DNA of 64,000 nt from Hafnia alvei (GTDB lineage Bacteria > Pseudomonadota > Gammaproteobacteria > Enterobacterales > Enterobacteriaceae). Within the stretch, counting starts at the first letter, position 1. Each line of letters starts with the position of its first letter. Location of the stretch: positions 1 to 64,000 of the forward strand of contig NZ_FMIQ01000014.1 of the NCBI RefSeq assembly GCF_900095695.1. Direction: 5' to 3'. The notes below the pieces were generated by a model. It saw only the letters and a list, made by a program, of their open reading frames with translations, did no database searches and was not told the DNA's origin. A program made the position numbers and the translations under genes. Positions 20,021-30,476 of the stretch are shown here, one piece after another.

Positions 20021-20479
20021 ATGCCAGAGACAACTTCTCCCAATATCCTATTACGCCCCGCCACCGCGCTGGATGAAGGCACGGTGTATCACCTGATGTG
20101 TGAGCTTGAGCAATGTAAGTTCGACCGCCTCGCTTTCGCCAAAGGCTATGCGCTCAATTTGGCCAATCCGAATATGCACTATGCGTTAGCCACCCAAGAC
20201 GCCGAGGTGCTGGGATTTATTAGCCTTCATCTGCAATATCATCTGCATCACGTCAACTGGATTGCCGAAATTCAGGAGCTGATTATTACGCCGCAGGCAC
20301 GTGGGGCTGGCGTGGGTAAGCGGCTGTTGCGTTGGGCGGAAGATACGGCGCGTGAATTAGGGGCGGAGCAGACCGAGCTGTCCACGCGTGCAACGCGTTA
20401 TGACGCACATCGTTTTTATCAGCGTGAAGGCTATCTTCACACGCATTTTCGCTTCGTCAAGCCACTGTCGGATCAGTAA
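20021..20479 (+). CDS. phnO: Aminoalkylphosphonate N-acetyltransferase
   Basis: PhnO is a GNAT enzyme that acetylates aminoalkylphosphonates such as aminomethylphosphonate, which protects the cell and aids their breakdown. The 152-residue protein has the acetyl-CoA loop [19 protein letters not shown] at about residues 90-110 and the final [17 protein letters not shown] strand pair. AGAGG lies upstream of the ATG. The phnP start overlaps its stop (TAATG). Confidence 0.93.
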
Positions 20480-21297
20480 TGATGTCTACGCTTACTTTCA
20501 CATTTTTAGGCACCGGCGGAGCACAGCAGGTGCCCGCTTTTGGCTGCCAGTGTGTTGTTTGCCAGCGAGCCAGAGAACAGCCGCAGTATCGGCGAAAACC
20601 CTGTAGCGCCATGCTGGAATATCACGGCAGCCGAACGCTGATTGACGCAGGTTTGCACGACCTAACCGAACAGTTTACACCTGAGCAAATTAGCCAGTTT
20701 CTGCTGACGCATTACCATATGGACCACGTTCAGGGATTATTTCCGCTGCGCTGGGGCGTGGGTGAGTCCATTCCCGTCTATGGGCCGCCGGATGAAATGG
20801 GCTGTGACGATCTGTTTAAGCACCCCGGCATACTCGATTTCAACCATACGCTCACGGCGTTTGAAACCATCTGGCTGCAAGGACTGAGCATCACACCGCT
20901 TCCGCTTAATCATTCGAAACTCACTTTTGGCTATCTATTCACAACGCCCCATCATCGAATCGCCTATCTGACGGATACCGCAGGTTTGCCAGAAGCTACC
21001 GCAGATTTTTTGTGCCAGCAGCCGCCTGAAATCATGATTATCGACTGTAGCCATGAGCCACGCCCAAGCACGCCGAAAAACCACAGCGATCTCAATACGG
21101 TGATAGCGTTAAAACAGCGGATAGGCTGCGAGAAAATTTGGCTGACCCACATTAGCCATCAGTTTGACCTGTGGATGCGAGAGAATTCACTCCCCGAAGG
21201 TATTGAAGCGGCCAGAGATGGATTAACGCTGACCGCAGATGAGAGTGACTATGATTGTAATGTCGATCGTTTAGAAGACCGAGATACACGGGTCTAG
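20479..21297 (+). CDS. phnP: Phosphoribosyl 1,2-cyclic phosphate phosphodiesterase
   Basis: PhnP opens the cyclic phosphate produced by PhnJ, giving ribose 1,5-bisphosphate for PhnN. The 272-residue metallo-beta-lactamase-fold protein has the metal motif [10 protein letters not shown] at about residues 75-84 and SKLTFGYLF further on. Three cysteines near the N-terminus ([11 protein letters not shown]) match the known structural zinc site of the family. The C-terminus is about 20 residues longer than in E. coli. It is the last gene of the operon; a multi-hairpin segment follows. Confidence 0.95.
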
Positions 21298-21316
21298 CAT
21301 ACCGCGGGGCGGTTAC

Positions 21317-21405
21317 GGAACACATCCATGTGTTCCTCCCTAAAGGGCAACGCTGAAGCGTTGTTCAACTTTGCTCCAGGCAAAGTTGTCGGCGGCTTAC
21401 GCCGC
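21317..21405. repeat. Four consecutive hairpins between phnP and yraR
   Basis: Four palindromes stand head to tail: GGAACACATCCATGTGTTCC at 21317-21336, CAACGCTGAAGCGTTG at 21348-21363, AACTTTGC-N5-GCAAAGTT at 21367-21387 and GCGGC-TTAC-GCCGC at 21392-21405. They fill the gap between two converging genes. No clear T-run is present. The composition recalls intergenic dispersed repeats of related enterobacteria, but the copy number cannot be judged here. Confidence 0.7.
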
Positions 21406-21448
21406 TACGACCCCATCGGCATGCTCCCCCTAAAATCGGGCTTAAGCT

Positions 21449-22081
21449 CTATTGAGAATATTTTTGAATCTGTTCTGATTCGATGATCTGCAAACGATAC
21501 GGTGCTGGGTGACGTGCAGATTTCAGCATCGCCATCGCCACAGCTGAAGCTTCGACGGCTTTCCATTTCTCAGGCAGCAGCTTAAAGATAGGTTCTGAAA
21601 TTTGCTCTAGCAATCGTGGTTTTGGCCGGTCGCCTTGTAGCATTGATGGCCGCACTATTGTGAGATGCGGCCATGCTTGCAGCTCTAACGCTTTCTCCAT
21701 TTCCCCTTTGGTCCGGCTGTAGAGGAATGAAGACTGTGGATTCGCGCCAAGCGCACTCACCACTGAATAGTGCTGGCAGCCATTTTTTAGCGCCACCGAC
21801 CCACACTCAACCACCAGCGTGTAGTCTACATAGCGAAATGCGGCATCGCTGCCGGCATCTTTGCGCGTGGTACCCAAGCAACAAAATGCGATATCAATAG
21901 GGGTCGTCCATGTTGCCATCGTCGCGCACAGATCGTCTGCGACCGGATTCACCAGTTTTTCTGACGGCGGTAAGGGCTTACGCGTTGGGGCATAGATTTT
22001 GCTGATGCCCGGATCCTGTTCTAGAAGTTTGAGTAATTCACTTCCAACTAAACCCGTCGCGCCTAACAATAAAATTTTCAT
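21449..22081 (-). CDS. yraR: NAD(P)-binding epimerase-like protein YraR
   Basis: This 210-residue short-chain-dehydrogenase-like protein begins with the Rossmann nucleotide loop MKILLLGATGLVGSELL. It has the blocks IDIAFCCLGTTRKDAGS, VVSALGANPQSSFLYSRTKGEME and WPHLTIVRPSMLQGDR. These are all close to E. coli YraR, a putative nucleoside-sugar epimerase with no proven substrate. I chose the ATG at 22081 because GGGAGG lies six to seven bases upstream. Its neighbours yhbP and yhbQ keep the E. coli order, but yhbO is missing between them. Confidence 0.9.
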   Translation of the reverse strand: MKILLLGATGLVGSELLKLLEQDPGISKIYAPTRKPLPPSEKLVNPVADDLCATMATWTTPIDIAFCCLGTTRKDAGSDAAFRYVDYTLVVECGSVALKNGCQHYSVVSALGANPQSSFLYSRTKGEMEKALELQAWPHLTIVRPSMLQGDRPKPRLLEQISEPIFKLLPEKWKAVEASAVAMAMLKSARHPAPYRLQIIESEQIQKYSQ

Positions 22082-22197
22082 CCGTTTTCCTCCCTGTTTT
22101 GAGTATAACGCGAGAAAAGCGACAGGTAAGGACTTCAAGCAATTAGTTTCAGTGATATATATCTAACTTCTCTATTGTAGTCATGATCATGTTGCCG

Positions 22198-22638
22198 TTA
22201 TTCCTGCTCAGAAGTTCGCTCCCAGCGAATTTTCTTCGCAAAGCCTAATTTATTGTCCGTCATTTTTATCTGGTTGAGCACAAGCTGCCAGATAGGCGCT
22301 GACATTAAACGAGCCGCGGGGAAGTGTTGATAATAGCGGCTACGCGCCAGACGATCGTTTTCACCTTCTAATATCATGGCCTCGCCAGAAAATTGCAGCC
22401 CACGGATCAGCGCAATGGTTTTGGTTTGATGCGCTATTGTTCCTGCGACCTGAGGATTTTTGAGCAGCATCCCACCGTGGCGGGTACGCGTTTCCGTCAT
22501 GAAATTGAGCGCCATACGATCTTCATCAAAGACATAGAAACAGTTGGCGCACCACATTTCCCCTTCCCAACAGGTTCCGAGTGTTAACACATGCTGGGCG
22601 CGCAGAAAGCGGCAAATATGCTCTTTATCAGTCGTCAT
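22198..22638 (-). CDS. yhbP: YhbP family (UPF0306) protein
   Basis: This 146-residue protein belongs to the pyridoxamine-phosphate-oxidase-like flavin-binding split-barrel group. LRAQHVLTLGTCWEGEMWCANCFYVFD opens the domain, and LNFMTETRTRHGGMLLKNPQVAGTI follows. The length and sequence match E. coli YhbP, whose biochemical role is not established. It is divergent from yhbQ with only 68 bases between them. Confidence 0.9.
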   Translation of the reverse strand: MTTDKEHICRFLRAQHVLTLGTCWEGEMWCANCFYVFDEDRMALNFMTETRTRHGGMLLKNPQVAGTIAHQTKTIALIRGLQFSGEAMILEGENDRLARSRYYQHFPAARLMSAPIWQLVLNQIKMTDNKLGFAKKIRWERTSEQE

Positions 22639-22670
22639 GGGTTGGTCTCACAGGCCATGGTAGATGAGGG

Positions 22671-22676
22671 TATAAT
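22671..22676 (+). promoter_or_regulatory. -10 element of yhbQ
   Basis: A perfect TATAAT stands 31 bases before the yhbQ ATG. No matching -35 is obvious at 16-18 bases, so the promoter strength is uncertain. Confidence 0.45.
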
Positions 22677-22706
22677 GTCATGAAACGGCTAACTGATTAA
22701 ATCCTA

Positions 22707-23006
22707 ATGACCACCGAACCTCATGAAACTCACTGGCATCTTTACCTCATACGCACCGCATCAGGCGCACTTTATACCGGTGTAACTACCGATGTAGAAC
22801 GCCGCTACCAGCAGCATCAGCGCGGAACAGGTGCGAAGGCATTGCGCGGTAAGGGGCCATTACAGCTGGCATTTTCGTGCATCGTGGGCGAGAGAGGGCA
22901 AGCTTTGCGGTTGGAGTATCGTATCAAGCAGCTAAATAAAGCACAGAAAGAGAAATTGGTGACGGAAAACCCAGAAATGCTAGAGGAATGGTTTGAAAAA
23001 GTGTAA
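22707..23006 (+). CDS. yhbQ: GIY-YIG domain protein YhbQ
   Basis: This 99-residue single-domain GIY-YIG protein has [28 protein letters not shown], which carries the tyrosines and the catalytic arginine of the UvrC/I-TevI nuclease fold. [16 protein letters not shown] follows, with the metal-binding glutamate. E. coli YhbQ is linked to DNA repair and has nuclease activity. A terminator hairpin at 23082 ends this transcript. Confidence 0.93.
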
Positions 23007-23081
23007 TTGAACAACGAAGTTTATTAATGTTGAAAAAATATGCGGCTCCCCTTTGGCAATTTATTGTTGCTCTATCGGTGG

Positions 23082-23107
23082 AGCCGTAAAGAACGGCTGG
23101 TTTTTCT
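23082..23107 (+). terminator. Terminator after yhbQ
   Basis: AGCCGT-AAAGA-ACGGCT forms a six-base-pair stem followed by GGTTTTTCT, a weak intrinsic terminator 76 bases after the yhbQ stop. Confidence 0.55.
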
Positions 23108-23348
23108 ATATAGTGCCCTGGTGAGGCGAAATCAGCATCTTCAGACAGAGCGCAACAAACAGCGAATGTTTACGAGGCACGTTGTTATTTGTTTAGCTCT
23201 GTCACGTTCAATATAAACATTACGCATCAGTCCGGGAACGGGTGAAAACCACCCTTGTAACACTTTAATAAAAGTGATACTAAAAGTGGTTTAGCCCAAT
23301 TTCTTTAATTACACCCCTAATTATTTACATGCAAAGGTATCTTTCACA
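23108..23348 (+). promoter_or_regulatory. Leader of the GNAT-regulator-permease cassette with CACTTT repeats
   Basis: This stretch before the acetyltransferase gene holds a hairpin GGGTG-N5-CACCC at 23240-23254. Three copies of one half-site follow: CACTTT at 23261, AAAAGTG at 23270 and AAAAGTG at 23282. The first two form a palindrome. The spacing suggests an operator for the regulator encoded two genes later, but this is inference. I recognise no riboswitch consensus. Confidence 0.4.
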
Positions 23349-23759
23349 ATGAACATCAATATTACGGATGAGCCAAACCCACAGGATGAAGAGTTTGTCA
23401 TTGACAGTCTCTGGGCCCACAATAGCAAAACCGAAGCCGTCGATATTCATCCGTTATTTTTGACCGTTACTGACGACAAGGGAAAAATCGTTGCGGGTTT
23501 GGTTGCAAGAACTTGGTGGGGAGGTCTCGAGGTTCAATATCTGTGGGTCAGCGACGAATACCGTAAAAGTGGGTATGGCCGCCAACTGATGGAAAATGCT
23601 GAAAAAGAAGCGCTGAAGCGCGGCTGCCATATGGCTTATGTCGATACCTTCGATTTTCAGGCCAGAGGTTTCTATGAGAAATTAGGCTATCGTGTATATG
23701 GTGATTTAGGCGGATATGCCCATAGATTTACTCGGCACTATCTGGCGAAAGAAATCTGA
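23349..23759 (+). CDS. GNAT-family N-acetyltransferase of unknown substrate
   Basis: This 136-residue GNAT protein has a typical acetyl-CoA site, VSDEYRKSGYGRQLMENAEKEA at about residues 73-95. It ends with the paired strands DFQARGFYEKLGYRVYGDL. AAAGG lies eleven bases before the ATG. It heads a three-gene unit with a PAS-LuxR regulator and an NCS1 permease, so it probably acetylates the compound that the permease imports or a product of it. The substrate cannot be read from the sequence. Confidence 0.85.
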   Translation: MNINITDEPNPQDEEFVIDSLWAHNSKTEAVDIHPLFLTVTDDKGKIVAGLVARTWWGGLEVQYLWVSDEYRKSGYGRQLMENAEKEALKRGCHMAYVDTFDFQARGFYEKLGYRVYGDLGGYAHRFTRHYLAKEI

Positions 23760-23784
23760 TACATTCTTGAGCGAAGAGGTGGTC

Positions 23785-24474
23785 ATGGATTTGCCCGATA
23801 AAAATAATGAAATTTATTTCAAGGGCCTGATTGCCATGATGGAACACTTGAGTGAACCGTGGGGCATCAAAGATCTGCACTCCCGCCATGTCTATATGAA
23901 TCAGGCAGCTTATCTCTATACCAATACCCCCCTTGATTTCGATATCGAAGGTAAAAGGGACGATGAATTCCCCGCCCATTGGGCCGAGCTCTCTCCTGAA
24001 TTTATAGAGCACGATAAAAGAACTGAAGAATCTCAGGATCGCGTCACAGTAATAGAAACACATTACTGGTACGGGAAAGAATTCCTCATGCCTTATATCA
24101 GTGAAAAGCTGCCTATTTTCAATGAAAAAAAAGAACTAATTGGCGTGATGTGGAATGCCAAACCGCTTAATAGCTTGTCTCCTTTCAAATATATAAATCA
24201 GCAGAAGCCCAGTGTTCTCACCACTGAAATTATTAATACGACGTTCACTCGTTCTGAATTAGACGTCATATTTTTAATGTTGCAACGGCGCTCGGTTAAA
24301 GAAATCGCAAAAATATATAACATTAGTACCAAAACAATAGAAAACAGAATATATACCATTTACCAAAAATCTGATGTCCATACGCAGCAACAATTTGAGG
24401 AATTTTGCAAAGTTGCGCATTTGGATAATTATATTCCCGACCGGCTAGTGGCAAAAGGGATTCAGTTTATCTAA
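23785..24474 (+). CDS. PAS-LuxR type transcriptional regulator
   Basis: This 229-residue protein has an N-terminal PAS-like sensory part (LSEPWGIKDLHSRHVYMNQAAYLYTNT, then VIETHYWYGKEFLMPYISEKLPIF). The C-terminal helix-turn-helix is FTRSELDVIFLMLQRRSVKEIAKIYNISTKTIENRIYTIY, where KEIAKIYNISTKTIENR is the DNA-reading part of the LuxR/NarL fold. The ATG at 23785 follows AGAGG by six bases; an earlier in-frame start overlaps the acetyltransferase gene. It lies between that gene and the permease and probably controls both. I do not recognise a named family member. Confidence 0.85.
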   Translation: MDLPDKNNEIYFKGLIAMMEHLSEPWGIKDLHSRHVYMNQAAYLYTNTPLDFDIEGKRDDEFPAHWAELSPEFIEHDKRTEESQDRVTVIETHYWYGKEFLMPYISEKLPIFNEKKELIGVMWNAKPLNSLSPFKYINQQKPSVLTTEIINTTFTRSELDVIFLMLQRRSVKEIAKIYNISTKTIENRIYTIYQKSDVHTQQQFEEFCKVAHLDNYIPDRLVAKGIQFI

Positions 24475-24495
24475 ATAACAAGGGTATACCTTATC

Positions 24496-25800
24496 GTGAT
24501 CAAAATTGAAGATTATCCATTGAGCAGAGTGCCTCAGGATAAAAGGGTTTCATTTTTAAGCGTTGCTATGGTTCATATGGGTATGTTGACCGCGCTAGAT
24601 CAGTTCATGCTTGGCGCGGTATTGGGTAATTCCATGTCGCTAACTGATGCATTTACGGCAATCCTGATCGGCAGCGTCATATTTGGCGTTGTCACCTACG
24701 GTCTCGGCTTGGCGGGGATGCGCGAAGGAATATCCGGCAGCCTGCTGGCGCGCTGGTGTGGTTTTGGCCGTTTGGGTTCGGTGCTGATCGGCGTGGTGGT
24801 CGCCGTCAGTTTGCTCGGCTGGTTTGGGATCCAAAACGCCATTTTTGCTAAATCCTTGGACTTTGCACTCGGCCACAAGCTGGGCTTTGGCTGGGCTGCG
24901 GCCTTATCCGGCAGTTTCCTCACCATCTTGGTCGCATTTGGTTTCAAGGCATTGCGCATTGCAGCCAGAATCGCCGTACCGATGTTTATTCTGCTGGTCG
25001 CCTATATTTCCATTAATGTTTTATCTGGCCATAATTTGCCTGAAATTATGCAATTGGCTCCGCATGGCGAACCGCTATCTATCAGCGCCGGTATTACGAT
25101 CGTCGTTGGTGGCGCGATTGTTGCCAGTCTGATGACGCCTGATTTAACGCGTTACTCTAAAAACAAAAAACATGTGTTGGGCGTCACTATCGCCACCATC
25201 GTGGCCGGGGAGTTTATTATCAATGGTTTGGCGATTCTGATAGCCAAGACCTTAGGCACCGCGGACGTCGTGACGATCATGGCTCAAGCTGCCGGTGGTG
25301 CAGGTTTGCTGGTCGTCGTGTTCTCAACGCTAAGAGTTAACGATCTCAACCTCTATTCGTCTTCACTCGGTATCGTGAATGCGGTCGAAGGGCTCACCGG
25401 CAAGAGGCTGAAATACATCTCTACCACGCTGGTGATTGGCGTATTGGGGACCACGCTTTCGGTGCTGGGTATTTTGGATCGGTTTGTGGATTTTCTGACC
25501 GTGCTGGGCGTAGTTTTCCCACCGATTATCGGCATTATGCTGGTGGATTATTTTATCCTGCGCTCGCATCGTAACATTTTGGATAAGACTCGCGCAGAGG
25601 GAAAACTGCCAGATGACACCCAAACACCGGTTATTGGTTGGGCTGCCATTATCGCCAGCATTGTCGGGAGTATTGTCGGGCTGGTCACCGAATGGGGCAT
25701 TCCAACGATCAATTCGTTGCTTGCCGCCAGCTTGATATATTGGCTGTTTAAAATCGCCGTCAATCGCAATCAAAAGCCTGTTGAGACAGAAACCGCCTAG
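24496..25800 (+). CDS. NCS1-family nucleobase/cytosine permease
   Basis: This 434-residue inner-membrane protein has about twelve hydrophobic helices and belongs to the nucleobase-cation-symport-1 group. The N-terminus LSRVPQDKRVSFLSVAMVHMG and the MTPDLTRYSKNKKHVL block near residue 215 are characteristic of CodB-like members. E. coli CodB takes up cytosine, but no cytosine deaminase lies nearby, so the substrate may differ. Translation starts at GTG 24496, 21 bases after the regulator stop; the ribosome site AAGGG is far (about 12 bases), suggesting coupled or low expression. Confidence 0.88.
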   Translation: MIKIEDYPLSRVPQDKRVSFLSVAMVHMGMLTALDQFMLGAVLGNSMSLTDAFTAILIGSVIFGVVTYGLGLAGMREGISGSLLARWCGFGRLGSVLIGVVVAVSLLGWFGIQNAIFAKSLDFALGHKLGFGWAAALSGSFLTILVAFGFKALRIAARIAVPMFILLVAYISINVLSGHNLPEIMQLAPHGEPLSISAGITIVVGGAIVASLMTPDLTRYSKNKKHVLGVTIATIVAGEFIINGLAILIAKTLGTADVVTIMAQAAGGAGLLVVVFSTLRVNDLNLYSSSLGIVNAVEGLTGKRLKYISTTLVIGVLGTTLSVLGILDRFVDFLTVLGVVFPPIIGIMLVDYFILRSHRNILDKTRAEGKLPDDTQTPVIGWAAIIASIVGSIVGLVTEWGIPTINSLLAASLIYWLFKIAVNRNQKPVETETA

Positions 25801-25818
25801 TTTTGCCTCATAAACTCT

Positions 25819-25846
25819 GGATACTCCCTGAAAATGGGGAGTATCC
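25819..25846. terminator. Hairpin between the permease and yhbS
   Basis: GGATACTCCC and GGGAGTATCC form a ten-base-pair stem with an eight-base loop between two converging genes. No strong T-run follows on either strand, so it may act mainly as an RNA end-protecting structure or a Rho-assisted terminator. Confidence 0.55.
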
Positions 25847-25859
25847 ATAGGTTTCAAAC

Positions 25860-26363
25860 TCAGCCGCGTCCAAACGGGGCAGAATACTCAACTACCCCTT
25901 TGCAGTTTTCCATTTCACCATCGGCTAATGGGTAAACCTGAAACGACGCTTCTGTGCCCGGAAGACGGCTACGCAGGCCATGTTCTGCGGCATTCTGAAA
26001 ACCAAAAAGACTGAAATAGGCCGGTTCACCGAGCACAACAACGGCGGAATAACCAAATTCATTCAGGGAGTCTAAACCTTCATAAATGATTTTTTCTGCC
26101 AGCCCCTGACGGCGGTGGGCTTCATCCACCACCACCGGCGCCAGACCTACGCATTGGCGGTCTTCACCATCAACATAAACCGGGCTGAAAGCCGCGTATC
26201 CAACCACGCCGCCCTCTTCATCGGTGGCAACAACGCCTAGCGTTAACAGGCCATCCTCACGCAGACGCTGTACAAGCTCCGCTTCTTCACTGGTTGGGAA
26301 CGCGTTGCGTAGCAGCTGATCGATACCAGCAGCATCAACAGGAATTTCAACGCGAATTAGCAT
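25860..26363 (-). CDS. yhbS: GNAT-family acetyltransferase YhbS
   Basis: This 167-residue protein, the same length as E. coli YhbS, has the start MLIRVEIPVDAAGIDQLLRNAFP. The acetyl-CoA motif is VDEAHRRQGLAEKIIYEGLD at about residues 76-95, and LGEPAYFSLFGFQNA ends the fold. E. coli YhbS is associated with stationary-phase RNA-level control of growth, but its acetyl acceptor is unknown. Its start lies inside the end of ubiT (seven-base overlap), so the two are co-translated. Confidence 0.92.
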   Translation of the reverse strand: MLIRVEIPVDAAGIDQLLRNAFPTSEEAELVQRLREDGLLTLGVVATDEEGGVVGYAAFSPVYVDGEDRQCVGLAPVVVDEAHRRQGLAEKIIYEGLDSLNEFGYSAVVVLGEPAYFSLFGFQNAAEHGLRSRLPGTEASFQVYPLADGEMENCKGVVEYSAPFGRG

Positions 26364-26878
26364 GGTGAAACCTCTTGGGTAGCGGGCGGTGATGCTTCTT
26401 TCATGCCTGCATCAACGAATTCAGCCAACTGTAACAGACCAAAACGCAGCGGCTTAGGCATAGCATCTAAATCTATCGCATCCATCAAATTTTTGACATA
26501 TAAGCCAAGCTCAGTATCACCTTCAATACGTAAGCGGCGTTGGAAAAACAGCGTATCAGGATCTTCTTTGCGGGCTGCAATCAGAATCAAATCGTTGGCA
26601 TCCGCGCTGAAGCTTACGTCGGCCTCTTGATGCTGGCTGACCTGCAATTTGCCTTGGTTAACGGTGACAAACCACTTTAAGCCAAGATCGCGTACCTCAA
26701 CCTTCAGCCAACGATCTTCCAGAAACTCAAGCTCATCATCCTCAAGCGCCTGACGAAATTGCCAGCCCAGCAGTTGTTCCAGCACTTGTCGTTGCAAAGC
26801 AAACGGCGTGAATTTTAACGGGACGCTTAAAAACGCCGGGCCTTGACGCACTAAACGTGCTCGTAATTTTTCCAACAC
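26357..26878 (-). CDS. ubiT: Oxygen-independent ubiquinone synthesis accessory protein UbiT
   Basis: UbiT (YhbT) is a lipid-binding SCP2-domain protein that works with UbiU and UbiV to make ubiquinone without oxygen. The GTG at 26878 gives 173 residues and the family start VLEKLRARL, with AAAAGGAG eight bases upstream. An earlier GTG at 26920 would add 14 residues without support. The SCP2 fold includes FAL-QRQVLEQLLGWQFRQAL, ADVSFSADANDLILIAARKEDPDTLFFQRRL and GDTELGLYVKNLMDA. It is divergent from ubiUV. Confidence 0.92.
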   Translation of the reverse strand: MLEKLRARLVRQGPAFLSVPLKFTPFALQRQVLEQLLGWQFRQALEDDELEFLEDRWLKVEVRDLGLKWFVTVNQGKLQVSQHQEADVSFSADANDLILIAARKEDPDTLFFQRRLRIEGDTELGLYVKNLMDAIDLDAMPKPLRFGLLQLAEFVDAGMKEASPPATQEVSPC

Positions 26879-27180
26879 TGGAGTGACTCCTTTTGACACG
26901 GGGTGCGGGTATTTTGCCACATTAACAGCGTAAGACAGCGCGCTATATCAACAAAACGAACCCTTATTAGTTTGGCACACATAGAGAGCGAAAATAATTT
27001 GGGTAAAGAATAACCGCCATGTTGCTGCTGTCAACACGCGAGAAACTGCCTCAAATCAAAACGGCTGATGAATGGGTTATCTAGAATGATCGCCATTAAA
27101 ATTATCACTCAGGGTTCAATCGATCACCTGTTGTCATTAATTGCCACTCATCGCTAACGTGGCTTGTTCAGGAATGATAT
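26879..27180. other. Divergent ubiT/ubiUV control region
   Basis: This 302-base gap separates ubiT from ubiU. Besides the FNR-like promoter candidate listed next, I see no gene or repeat in it. It is moderately AT-rich. Confidence 0.5.
27046..27087 (+). promoter_or_regulatory. Candidate FNR-dependent promoter of ubiUV
   Basis: CTGCC-TCAA-ATCAA at 27046-27059 has one perfect FNR half-site (ATCAA) and one poor one. A good -10, TAGAAT at 27082-27087, lies so that the FNR-like site is centred about 41.5 bases before the expected start near 27094, the class II position. FNR induction of ubiUV is established in E. coli; this site is inferred. Confidence 0.45.
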
Positions 27181-28176
27181 ATGGAGTTGCTTTGCCCCGC
27201 CGGAAACTTACCTGCCCTGAAGGCAGCGATCGATAACGGCGCAGACGCCGTTTATATCGGTTTAAAAGATGATACCAATGCACGGCATTTCGCTGGCTTG
27301 AACTTCACCGAGAAAAAACTTCAGGAAGCTGTTAGCTATGTGCACCGCCACAACCGCAAATTGCACATCGCGATTAATACTTTTGCCCATCCTGACGGCT
27401 ATGCCCGCTGGGAGCGTGCTGTCGATATGGCGGCGCAGCTGGGAGCCGACGCGCTCATTTTAGCCGATCTTGCCATGCTCGAATATGCCGCCGAGCGCTA
27501 TCCCCACGTGGAACGTCACGTGTCCGTTCAGGCATCGGCAACCAATGACGAAGCTATCCGTTTCTATAAACAGCACTTTGACGTAGCTCGTGTGGTGCTA
27601 CCGCGCGTGCTGTCGATTCATCAGGTGAAACAGCTGGCCCGCACCAGCGAAGTTCCACTGGAAGTCTTTGCGTTTGGCAGCCTGTGCATTATGGCTGAAG
27701 GGCGCTGTTATCTGTCCTCTTACCTCACAGGTGAGTCACCAAACACCGTTGGGGCCTGCTCTCCGGCTCGCTATGTTCGCTGGCAGCAAACTCCTCAAGG
27801 CATGGAATCACGCCTGAATGACGTGCTTATCGATCGCTATGAAGATGGCGAGAACGCCGGTTATCCAACGCTGTGTAAGGGTCGCTATATGGTGGACGGC
27901 GAGAAATATCATGCGCTTGAAGAACCTACCAGCCTAAATACCCTTGAGCTTCTGCCTGATTTGCTCGGGGCAAATATCGCCTCGGTGAAAATTGAAGGCC
28001 GCCAACGTAGCCCTGCCTATGTGAGCCAAGTGGCGAAAGTATGGCGTCAGGCTATCGATCGCTGCCAAAAAGATCCGGAAGGCTATAAAGCAGAACAAAG
28101 CTGGATGGATAGCCTTGGCGCAATGGCAGAAGGAACTCAAACCACGTTGGGTGCCTATCACCGGAAATGGCAGTAA
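27181..28176 (+). CDS. ubiU: Oxygen-independent ubiquinone hydroxylation protein UbiU
   Basis: UbiU (YhbU) forms with UbiV the iron-sulfur heterodimer that hydroxylates ubiquinone precursors without oxygen, using prephenate as oxygen donor. The 331-residue U32-peptidase-family protein begins MELLCPAGNLPALKAAIDNGADAVY. It has the four cluster cysteines at 169, 176, 193 and 232, the same positions as in E. coli. AGGA stands before the ATG. ubiV follows after 12 bases. Confidence 0.97.
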   Translation: MELLCPAGNLPALKAAIDNGADAVYIGLKDDTNARHFAGLNFTEKKLQEAVSYVHRHNRKLHIAINTFAHPDGYARWERAVDMAAQLGADALILADLAMLEYAAERYPHVERHVSVQASATNDEAIRFYKQHFDVARVVLPRVLSIHQVKQLARTSEVPLEVFAFGSLCIMAEGRCYLSSYLTGESPNTVGACSPARYVRWQQTPQGMESRLNDVLIDRYEDGENAGYPTLCKGRYMVDGEKYHALEEPTSLNTLELLPDLLGANIASVKIEGRQRSPAYVSQVAKVWRQAIDRCQKDPEGYKAEQSWMDSLGAMAEGTQTTLGAYHRKWQ

Positions 28177-28188
28177 GGAGCTGAAAGC

Positions 28189-29067
28189 ATGAAATATTCT
28201 CTAGGAGCCGTGCTCTATTACTGGCCAAAAGCCGAAATTGAACGTTTTTACCAAGCCGCGACGCAAAGCGAAGCCGATATTATCTACCTCGGTGAAACCG
28301 TTTGTTCTAAGCGCCGTGAAATGAAAGTGGCAGATTGGCTGGACGTTGCCAAACAGGTGGCACAGTCGGGCAAACAGGTTGTTATCTCTACGCTTGCACT
28401 GCTGCAGGCGCCCTCCGAGCTTAATGAGCTAAAGCGCTATGTTGAAAACGGTGATTTCCTGATTGAGGCCAACGATTTGGGCACGGTAAACATGGCCGCC
28501 GAGCGCAAATTACCGTTTGTGGCAGGGCATGCGTTGAACTGCTACAACGCCGTCACGCTGCGCTTGTTGCACAAACAGGGCATGATGCGTTGGTGTATGC
28601 CGGTTGAGCTTTCTCATGACTGGCTTAAAAACGTGATGACGCAGTGCGAAGATCTGGGTATCCGCAATAAGTTTGAAGTGGAAGTGCTGAGCTATGGTCA
28701 TCTCCCTCTGGCCTATTCTGCCCGCTGCTTTACCGCACGTTCGGAAGATTTGCCTAAAGATCAGTGCGAAACTTGCTGTATCAAATACCCTCAAGGTCGC
28801 CGCGTGTTATCGCAGGAAAATCAGCAGGTATTCGTGCTGAATGGTATTCAGACGCAGAGTGGATATTGCTATAACCTTGGCAATAACCAACTGGAAATGC
28901 AGGGATTAGTCGACATCGTTCGTCTATCGCCAGAAAGTATGGATACGCTCAGCGTGCTGAGTCAGTTCCGCGCTAATGAACAAGGTGCTCAGCCATTAAC
29001 CTTGGAAAATCGCGCCGACTGCAACGGCTATTGGCAGCGCGTTGCCGGGCTCGAATTAGTTCAGTAA
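28189..29067 (+). CDS. ubiV: Oxygen-independent ubiquinone hydroxylation protein UbiV
   Basis: UbiV (YhbV) is the second U32-family partner of the UbiUV complex. The 292-residue protein starts MKYSLGAVLYYWPK. It has cysteines at 39, 180, 193 and 197 that match the known 4Fe-4S ligands (ETVCSKRR, SARCF and DQCETCC). AAGGAG lies before the ATG. A strong bidirectional terminator follows, so ubiUV form a two-gene transcript. Confidence 0.97.
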   Translation: MKYSLGAVLYYWPKAEIERFYQAATQSEADIIYLGETVCSKRREMKVADWLDVAKQVAQSGKQVVISTLALLQAPSELNELKRYVENGDFLIEANDLGTVNMAAERKLPFVAGHALNCYNAVTLRLLHKQGMMRWCMPVELSHDWLKNVMTQCEDLGIRNKFEVEVLSYGHLPLAYSARCFTARSEDLPKDQCETCCIKYPQGRRVLSQENQQVFVLNGIQTQSGYCYNLGNNQLEMQGLVDIVRLSPESMDTLSVLSQFRANEQGAQPLTLENRADCNGYWQRVAGLELVQ

Positions 29068-29085
29068 CCCTCTGTTTATAAAAAA

Positions 29086-29108
29086 ATGGGAGCCAAGGCT
29101 CCCATTTT
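29086..29108. terminator. Bidirectional terminator between ubiV and cyuA
   Basis: ATGGGAGCC-AA-GGCTCCCAT forms a tight stem with a run of A before it and TTTT after it. It can therefore end both the rightward ubiUV and the leftward cyuPA transcripts. Confidence 0.85.
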
Positions 29109-29132
29109 CATACTGGCCATTCTCACTCGTTA

Positions 29133-30476
29133 TTACGATGCTTTCTTAGCCATAATCTCAATAATCTGCGTATCCGTTTGCTGCATCGAGTGGCAGGCTA
29201 ACGCGCAGAGATTAGCGATCGAGCGATCGACATCGTCGGTCACAATGCCTTCGTTACCCGTTACACAGCTATTGTCCAGCGCCATCAGCACGGCTTTATA
29301 GGCGGCTGACACGCTGGTTGATACTTTCATCGCACAGCTATTCGATGCGCCATCGCAAATCATACCGCTCACATCACCAATCATGCTGCTGATTGCCATG
29401 GCTACCGTTTCATAGCGCCCTTCAATCAACCATGCGATCCCTGCCGCCGCCCCCATTGACGCCGTTGTCGCGGCACAGAGCGCCGAAAGCGTTGGCAGCT
29501 GGCTATGGATATAGATTGCCGTGAGATGTGACAACATTAACGCACGGGTTAGCTGCTCTTCGCTGGCACCGAGGTACTCAGCCACCACCACCACTGGCAT
29601 GGTAGCTGCAATGCCCTGATTCCCCGAGCCTGAATTACTCATAGCCGGCATTACCGCGCCGCCCATACGTGCATCAGAGGCTGAAGAAGTGCGGATCATG
29701 ATATCGGTGAGTAAATCACGCGCCAATAACCCACGTTCGCGCTGGCGCTGAAGCGTCGCACCGATATGCAAACCATATTGGTGGCTGAGACCTTCTAACG
29801 ACAGCGCCTTGTTCAACGTGGCGGCTTCTAGAATAAAATGGATCCGCGCCAACGGCACGTTAACCGCAAAATCAAATACCTGTTTTAGCGACGCTTTTTT
29901 CAGGCAATAACCTTCTTGGCAAGTCTCTTCGCCGCTGTTATCTGCGTTATGGCAAGCATCAAACAGTACATCACCGTTTTTGACGATTTTGATGACGTTG
30001 GTATGACCATCGGCAATCGTGACACAGACTGACTCCGTTGGGCCAAACACAGTAACTTGAGAGAATAAAATGTGCTCACACGGTTGTTGGATACCCACGG
30101 TGACGGCCCCACTCGCCAGAAGCGACTTCCCTGCCGCTATCGACTCTGGCGTTGCATGCTTGAGCACTTCCAACCCTGCGCTGGCATCGCCACCCATCGC
30201 CCCCACGGCCGCGGCGATCGGCAACCCAACCATCCCCGTACCGGGCACGGTGACTCCCATACCATTTTTCATTAGGTTAGGCGAAACACGTGCTTCGATA
30301 CGTTCAACGGATTCTGGAAGATATGAAGCGGCAACGGCAGCAGCCAACGCCAAAGAAACTGGCTCTGTGCAGCCTACTGCGGGCTTAACTTCTTGCTGTA
30401 CCGCACGGATAAACTCACTCCACAATTCATCACGTGATTCGGTACACAACAGATTTTCGCTTTCATACTTGCTCAT
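29133..30476 (-). CDS. cyuA: L-cysteine desulfidase CyuA
   Basis: CyuA (YhaM, UPF0597) is an iron-sulfur enzyme that breaks L-cysteine into pyruvate, sulfide and ammonia in anaerobic cysteine use. The 447-residue protein has the family blocks [20 protein letters not shown] near residue 30, [21 protein letters not shown] and [20 protein letters not shown]. The last one carries cysteines likely to hold the cluster. It is downstream of the cysteine transporter gene cyuP in a two-gene unit. In E. coli the pair lies elsewhere on the chromosome, near tdc. Confidence 0.93.

Follow-up and report, generated by a model that had tools for sequence, protein, structure and literature searches.

A mobile PAS-LuxR regulator/NCS1 permease cassette with an exchangeable acetyltransferase and a predicted operator-promoter between yhbQ and yhbS of Hafnia alvei

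A comparative analysis was carried out on a three-gene cassette in a 64,000-nucleotide stretch of the Hafnia alvei genome (contig NZ_FMIQ01000014.1, positions 1 to 64,000; hereafter, the window). According to the open reading frame (ORF) listing of the window, genes for a GNAT-family acetyltransferase, a PAS-LuxR regulator and an NCS1-family permease are co-oriented neighbors between yhbQ and yhbS. Comparison across genomes establishes the location of this cassette, its unity, its mobility and a conserved switch ahead of it. What is new is the probable local control of an NCS1 permease by a PAS-LuxR protein together with an exchangeable enzyme; no description of the cassette was found in the literature searched, a search that most subscription journals lay outside of. 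A first-pass annotation of the same DNA had delimited the unit as 23349-25800. The three ORFs lie where it placed them, but the unit begins further upstream, with a predicted promoter-operator at 23235-23283. The features of the locus are as follows.

23235..23254, + strand: predicted operator, the palindrome GGGTG-AAAAC-CACCC (23240-23254) with a 5' GGAAC, from comparison of upstream regions
23255..23283, + strand: predicted promoter, with -35 TTGTAA (23255-23260), a 17-nt spacer and an extended -10 TGaTACTAA (23275-23283)
23349..23759, + strand: GNAT acetyltransferase, 136 aa (Pfam PF00583/PF13508)
23785..24474, + strand: PAS-LuxR regulator, 229 aa, VqmA-like (phmmer, Pfam, AlphaFold model)
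24496..25800, + strand: NCS1 permease, 434 aa (PF02133), whose relatives carry the label 'cytosine permease' in public records
25812..25853, no strand assigned: inverted repeat 3' of the permease, a possible terminator shared with the convergent yhbS (repeat arms 88% complementary)

Unity, spread and mobility of the cassette

The start of the regulator was set at the ATG at 23785, the ORF lister starting the same ORF further upstream, at 23716, and the gaps from stop to next start in the window are 25 nt (GNAT/regulator) and 21 nt (regulator/permease). GC content is 46% for the GNAT gene, 39% for the regulator, 51% for the permease and 39.5% for the leader, versus 48.7% for the window; the regulator and the leader hence stand out in composition because of their low GC. 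The absence of the three genes from this place in E. coli, as claimed in the first-pass annotation, is borne out: 5,374 of 5,426 E. coli genomes match the locus query and none contains 80% of it, and among the ten matches listed the match spans 18% of the query and is confined to yhbQ, yhbS and ubiT. Its remark that no catabolic gene accompanies the cassette also stands, with no hydrolase or deaminase gene adjoining the three genes among the ORFs of the window.

Co-occurrence was assessed in a locus scan with one genome per species; permease relatives turned up at 59 loci, of which 55 are enterobacterial. All three genes occur in 45 of the 55, the GNAT being partial or split at two of these, L033 and L038; eight loci hold the regulator and the permease without GNAT, which brings that pair to 53 of 55, and the permease is alone at two loci, one of which (L049) starts at a contig end. 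The spacing between genes, counted from the last sense base of one (its stop codon thus included) to the start of the next, is 16-41 nt at one junction and 17-56 nt at the other, each in 48 of 49 unique three-gene loci, and the protein distance matrices of the three genes correlate with r of 0.85-0.89, a level reached by 0 of 999 permutations. The three genes had earlier been read as one unit, with their failure to co-occur elsewhere named as the result that would speak against it; the neighborhood survey finds them together in the 45 loci counted above, at near-constant spacing and with correlated divergence.

The flanks of the cassette vary, from yhbQ/yhbS in the window to lsr genes at a Yersinia locus, iol genes at a Xenorhabdus locus, a queuosine-precursor-transporter-like gene and a phospholipase C gene at a Serratia locus, and wzz at an Erwinia locus; a single locus was scanned for each of these four genera, and the flanking clusters recur in further loci. 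The three genes are also found together on a conjugative plasmid of Erwinia amylovora and on a plasmid of Pantoea stewartii. Among 392 genomes of the host's family, the permease is present in 75 (E <= 1e-60) and the regulator in 74 (E <= 1e-40). In a sample of the class one of 124 genomes matches, the host itself, and in a sample of the phylum two of 145 do, both in the host's family; the cassette is rare within the phylum outside that family. Actinophytocola and plasmids of Geobacillus type carry more distant permease relatives. In PLSDB, 52 plasmids encode a permease relative at E <= 1e-60 (Arsenophonus 21, Sodalis 9, Pantoea 5, Parageobacillus 5, and others), and 37 of the 40 plasmid records among the matches listed (of 52) carry a 'cytosine permease' annotation that is probably wrong.

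Within the host's genus, the permease is split into two ORFs at L205 (4353-6803) and the regulator has an internal stop at L206 (6163-6921). A cassette gene is thus broken in two of the three close relatives retrieved (L204-L206), and the genus would seem able to do without the cassette. Six genomes (G347, G400, G434, G437, G474 and G646; loci L164-L186 and L201-L202) have four permease matches each, many adjoining different PAS-LuxR genes, in what may be an expansion in insect symbionts.

A conserved operator-promoter element

Upstream of the GNAT gene lies a 23-mer block, GGAAC-GGGTG-AAAAC-CACCC-TTG, which is found with at most 7 mismatches in 44 of 56 deduplicated GNAT upstream regions; among 2,800 shuffled sequences, preserving base composition only, one reached 7 mismatches and none fewer. 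The motif model was built on these 44 regions, the 12 with more than 7 mismatches being excluded. A TGnTA occupies a fixed position in 41 of the 44 sites (mean 0.24 and maximum 2 in 300 spacer shuffles), and the -10 hexamer is preceded by TGn and lies 17 bases past the -35 hexamer. Since TTG belongs to the searched consensus, its presence in 44 of 44 sites is partly the result of selection; TGnTA is not part of that consensus. The palindrome arms are imperfect, with a full 5-bp palindrome in 17 of the 44 sites and variable second and fourth pairs. As predicted, the palindrome would abut the -35, placing the operator center about 43 nt before the presumed transcription start, and a lux-box-like placement near -43 is the usual site for a LuxR-type activator. 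Conservation supports the site and the promoter, whereas the identity of the binding protein and its activating role are suggested by position.

Of 75 regulators with at least 55% identity (near-duplicates included), 72 have the element in the 1 kb that precedes them, and the model of the element gives no match in 433 kb of shuffled control. It is retained in all eight GNAT-less Xenorhabdus-type loci, which were not used in building the motif, and also occurs in a genome (L128) that yielded no GNAT and no permease. The core, GRGTGNNNNNCACYCTTG, is found exactly once with 0 mismatches in the host draft genome. Because the exact core is single there and the element is kept by the regulator, the regulator would drive mainly its own operon, and most likely that operon and little else; the cassette is probably one autoregulated unit. 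A wider regulon was considered and rejected, the core at up to 2 mismatches yielding 174 matches in the host draft genome versus 222 for a reversed control pattern.

A general sigma-70 scan returned 8 promoter-like sites versus 5.1 in shuffles, and the proposed promoter is not among them because its -10 fails the rule of the scan. A riboswitch or RNA leader was rejected: Rfam gave no match to the leader up to E 1 and, over 20400-29200, a single sub-threshold snoRNA match only, and the hairpin of the element has a z of 0.00 against shuffles. The promoter is preferred over an RNA leader because TGnTA at fixed spacing 3' of the element fits a promoter. Folding of the whole leader gives a z of -1.86, with 10 of 200 shuffles equally stable, and the leader may have weak RNA structure. 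The first-pass annotation had offered 'leader repeats' as the site of the regulator, an idea that is not upheld: the 11-nt direct repeat at 23266/23278 falls in the -35/-10 spacer and over the -10, and is not taken as a binding site because the spacer is mostly poorly conserved in other genera.

The three proteins and their alternative partners

The permease belongs to the NCS1 family by PF02133 (Transp_cyt_pur; E 1.3e-25, 90.6 bits versus a cut-off of 23.5), in agreement with its earlier description as a nucleobase-type permease. Its top NCBIfam match is the cytosine permease model PRK11017, at 198.3 bits and below the equivalog cut-off of 326. In CodB (7qoa), Gln105 binds cytosine, Thr278 and Thr279 bind sodium and a Trp stacks, as given in the accessible part of PMC9379551. 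The stacking Trp of transmembrane helix 3 (TM3; CodB Trp108) is shared by the cassette permease and conserved in 89 of 89 deduplicated relatives. This 89-row set was reduced at <93% identity, with permeases shorter than 380 aa left out of the residue comparison; a 119-permease set and the 75-locus set include near-duplicates. Unlike CodB, the window permease has Leu106 for Gln105, Ala207 for Phe204 and Arg280/Val281 for Thr278/Thr279, so that it falls outside CodB by Gln105 and Thr278/Thr279, and no cytosine deaminase adjoins the cassette. Across the 89 rows, the Gln105 position is Leu in 81, including all 57 with Arg at the Thr278 position (Arg278-type), and Gln in none; the other 32 have Lys at the Thr278 position (Lys278-type), and the Thr279 position is Val, Ile, Met or Asn. 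These replacements argue against a CodB-type permease and for a substrate other than cytosine, and CodB-type sodium coupling is probably absent. The host has a separate CodB, which keeps all compared pocket residues save for a conservative change at position 205 and lies beside a 432-aa protein taken by eye for CodA.

A Gln lies four residues past the TM3 Trp in 87 of the 89 permeases (Gln113 in the window). If Trp117 of the hydantoin permease Mhp1 is, as we assume, the equivalent of the TM3 Trp, Gln113 would match Mhp1 Gln121. The window protein differs from Mhp1 in having Ala at the second aromatic and in having lost the sodium site, and no Mhp1 chain was found in a sequence search with the window permease. 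Gln121 and Asn318 are named as the main hash-domain substrate contacts of Mhp1 in the accessible part of PMC9379551. The Arg-type permeases form one supported group of 58 rows (SH-aLRT 100), one of them a tandem Yersinia copy with Lys, in a quick tree with long branches flagged and 28 of 88 inner branches drawn open. Identity to the window permease is 40-56% for the Lys278-type permeases and near 80% for two tandem Yersinia copies. These are second permeases in Yersinia artesiana (L009 7912-9219) and Y. aldovae (L026 7597-8904), with Lys for Arg at the former sodium site.

In the regulator, GerE (PF00196) scores 29.7 bits versus a cut-off of 23.5, and PAS_4 scores 22.1 bits, just under its cut-off of 23.1 and over it in three relatives. 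The PAS and helix-turn-helix (HTH) regions of the AlphaFold model (pLDDT, the predicted local confidence score, 90.3) match solved PAS and HTH domains, so that the protein combines a LuxR-type HTH with a PAS fold, as expected of the PAS sensor proposed beforehand. The VqmA chains 7dwm, 6ide, 6ugl and 6kju are retrieved by phmmer at E 9e-11 to 2e-9, and the model matches 7dwm_A (Z 19.5, root-mean-square deviation (rmsd) 4.3, 212 residues aligned) and 6ide_B (Z 18.0, rmsd 2.9, 200 aligned), the best non-VqmA fold match being the BvgS PAS domain (Z 13.7). Among solved structures VqmA comes closest in both sequence and fold, at 20-25% identity. Structure entry titles name DPO (dimethylpyrazinone) as the VqmA ligand, whose contacts we take to be F67, F99 and K101. 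At the aligned places the window regulator has F73, S106 and K108; across 46 cassette-type regulators, position 108 is Lys in all 46, position 106 is Ser in 42 and Cys in 4, never Phe, and position 73 is Leu in 27, Phe in 16 and Met in 3. Because the Lys is kept, position 106 changed and position 73 often changed, the ligand is likely to be small and planar, with DPO itself not favored, its presumed contacts being kept only in part.

The DPO receptors VqmA of Vibrio cholerae and of phage VP882 resemble the cassette regulator in carrying PAS and a LuxR-type HTH over the full length, in the K101-aligned Lys and in a palindromic operator with GG...CC ends, and differ from it in the low identity and at the F99 and often the F67 place. 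According to the accessible part of PMC8284805, vqmR is the target of VqmA and the qtip promoter that of phage VqmA, whereas the cassette regulator sits in a putative operon with a permease and a GNAT. The PAS4-LuxR solos of Photorhabdus, many of them in gene clusters and with ligands unknown in the portion consulted of PMC4235431, share the domain architecture; the cassette regulator differs in being tied to a permease, a GNAT and an operator.

The acetyltransferase belongs to the GNAT family by PF00583 (E 2.7e-16, 60.3 bits versus a cut-off of 20.7). R-x-x-G-x-G is the CoA loop of GNATs, and its residues R72, G75 and G77 are present in 42 of 42 cassette GNAT rows. The nearest structures to its AlphaFold model (pLDDT 96.7) are 1y9w (Z 18.3, rmsd 3.0, 135 aligned) and 2g3a (Z 18.1, rmsd 1.7, 136 aligned), with a lower group of fold neighbors holding tabtoxin, streptothricin-type and N-terminal acetyltransferases. 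TIGR01575 rimI tops its NCBIfam matches at 36 bits, short of the equivalog cut-off of 86.4, which leaves it outside RimI. W22, W56, Y97 and Y117 are common to the cassette GNATs (40-42 of 42) and mostly replaced in 21 relatives outside the cassette; these shared aromatics may face a common aromatic acceptor.

The GNAT is missing or eroded in several Xenorhabdus-type loci, and in one of nine GNAT-less leaders, that of Xenorhabdus szentirmaii (L029 4951-5279), GNAT pieces corresponding to residues 1-16 and 86-124 lie between the element and the regulator as a trace of its erosion. GNAT neighbors were counted by tblastn, the ORF calls having missed the GNAT behind longer antisense ORFs in several loci, and adjoin 39 of 57 Arg278-type permeases and 1 of 32 Lys278-type permeases (a tandem Yersinia copy). 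The enzymes beside Lys278-type permeases are a CN-hydrolase (PF00795), or S-Me-THD (PF06032/PF20906) with hydantoinase A (PF05378/PF01968); in the 89-row set, 15 of 15 such neighborhoods are at Lys278-type permeases, and none of these enzymes, GNAT included, is near 16 Lys278-type and 18 Arg278-type permeases. These partners were counted for recurring clusters only (CN-hydrolase, S-Me-THD, hydantoinase), with Pfam run on representatives, and the hydrolases tested stayed below the NCBIfam equivalog cut-offs. S-Me-THD (DUF917)/hydantoinase pairs adjoin the same permease family at six enterobacterial loci, in Actinophytocola (L056) and on a Parageobacillus plasmid; they differ from the cassette in that the six enterobacterial loci are Lys278-type with these enzymes in place of the GNAT, and the Parageobacillus locus has a sigma-54-type regulator. 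A regulator lies within 4.5 kb of 23 of 34 Lys278-type permeases. The opening or trimming of cyclic amides would be the theme of these sister enzymes. The regulator and the permease are the conserved core, and the GNAT an optional, exchangeable module.

Proposed mechanism and alternatives

The reading that we favor, with about even confidence, is that of a mobile, self-regulated unit that imports an N-heterocycle on induction by a ligand and then acetylates it. The PAS-LuxR protein would bind a small heterocyclic ligand, as its VqmA-like fold suggests, and the liganded regulator would bind the palindrome abutting the -35 and activate a single operon, raising regulator, permease and GNAT alike. 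The permease would import a small, planar ring compound, more probably a cyclic amide or another N-heterocycle than cytosine, and to judge from its residues probably without sodium coupling in the CodB manner; this substrate class is proposed because the sister permeases adjoin S-Me-THD/hydantoinase or CN-hydrolase genes. The GNAT, one of several alternative enzyme modules in the wider family, may acetylate the imported compound or its product, thus trapping it, detoxifying it or committing it to use. In the first-pass annotation the cassette had been read as uptake of a ring compound under a PAS sensor, followed by acetylation. A ring compound is probably the cargo, and a single unit with a PAS sensor and a nucleobase-type permease is supported, but the acetylation is optional, the core being regulator plus permease (8 of 55 loci without GNAT).

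Several observations weigh against this reading. Acetylation is not essential, because the regulator-permease pair persists where the GNAT has been lost. The hydrolase neighbors belong to the sister permease group and hence may be a poor predictor of the substrate of this one, and no regulator is nearby for 11 of 34 Lys278-type permeases. The element is missing at three of the 75 loci with regulators of at least 55% identity (L209, L210 and L220, the last with only ~240 nt of upstream sequence), is weaker at the divergent Arg278-type loci L118, L182, L207 and L213, was not found at the divergent Arg278-type loci L119, L129, L171, L177, L181, L200 and L201, and is above threshold at none of the Lys278-type loci. 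Another, more weakly conserved block, A...ATAA, is located at 23210-23216 of the window, 19-25 nt before the operator and at a fixed distance from it in 42 aligned upstream regions; it could represent either a second promoter or an additional binding site. The cassette regulator, moreover, is the presumptive binder of the predicted operator by virtue of their co-occurrence.

Detoxification or resistance, in which the GNAT would inactivate a plant, insect or microbial antimetabolite that the permease exchanges or exports, is in our estimation unlikely. Plasmid carriage and the plant- and insect-associated genera would suit resistance, tabtoxin, putative streptothricin and nourseothricin acetyltransferases are among the fold neighbors of the GNAT, and with the CodB sodium residues lost the direction of transport is not fixed; the known NCS1 members are importers, however, no substrate appears in the titles of the closest GNAT structures (1y9w, 2g3a), and the GNAT is missing from 8 loci with regulator and permease, which would be odd if it conferred resistance. 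We attach a distinctly smaller probability to the uptake and quenching of a signal, whereby a VqmA-type receptor would sense a pyrazinone or related autoinducer that is also imported and then acetylated, in the way that Lsr phosphorylates autoinducer 2 (AI-2). None of the 46 cassette-type regulators has Phe at the place of F99, a presumed DPO contact (Ser or Cys in all), and 16 of them have it at that of F67; the hydantoinase and CN-hydrolase partners of the sister permeases suggest nutrients, and no such system is mentioned in the accessible abstract text of papers that name both VqmA and a permease. For such a role speak the kinship of the regulator with VqmA in sequence and fold, the Lys aligned to K101 in all 46, and the GG-N9-CC spacing, reported for phage VqmA in the accessible part of PMC8284805, that the window palindrome contains. 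There is only a slim chance that the VqmA-like receptor, a sodium-independent NCS1 importer and the acetyltransferase sense, import and inactivate a heterocyclic signal (a pyrazinone or kindred ring); if true, this would be an Lsr-like signal-uptake unit for a second autoinducer class, carried by both chromosomes and plasmids in enterobacteria associated with plants and insects.

The GNAT might instead acetylate a protein, in the manner of RimI, or the regulator, so that it would tune the unit and leave the cargo unmodified. The position of TIGR01575 as best NCBIfam match, far under its cut-off, and the N-terminal acetyltransferases among the fold neighbors are in its favor, yet regulator, operator and permease are all kept in GNAT-less loci and the cassette-specific aromatics would better fit a small-molecule pocket, and we consider it very improbable. 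Least credible is plain nucleobase salvage by a second cytosine or purine permease sitting by chance with unrelated genes. Public records do name the relatives cytosine permease, and CodB is the only solved permease relative found by sequence, but the host already has a CodB next to its presumed CodA, the cytosine-binding Gln is Leu in 57 of 57 Arg278-type permeases, and gene order, distances and operator are conserved.

A widespread 'cytosine permease' family is probably misnamed, and often comes with a dedicated sensor and an exchangeable enzyme. The cassette offers a genetic handle for finding the ligands of PAS4-LuxR regulators, whose signals are unknown in the accessible part of the Photorhabdus survey (PMC4235431), and its conserved single-site promoter a ready-made reporter for ligand screens. 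Downstream of the permease, the inverted repeat at 25812-25853 was not picked up by a simple terminator scan, and the segment 25805-25860 folds into a hairpin of -22.9 kcal/mol (z -5.63).

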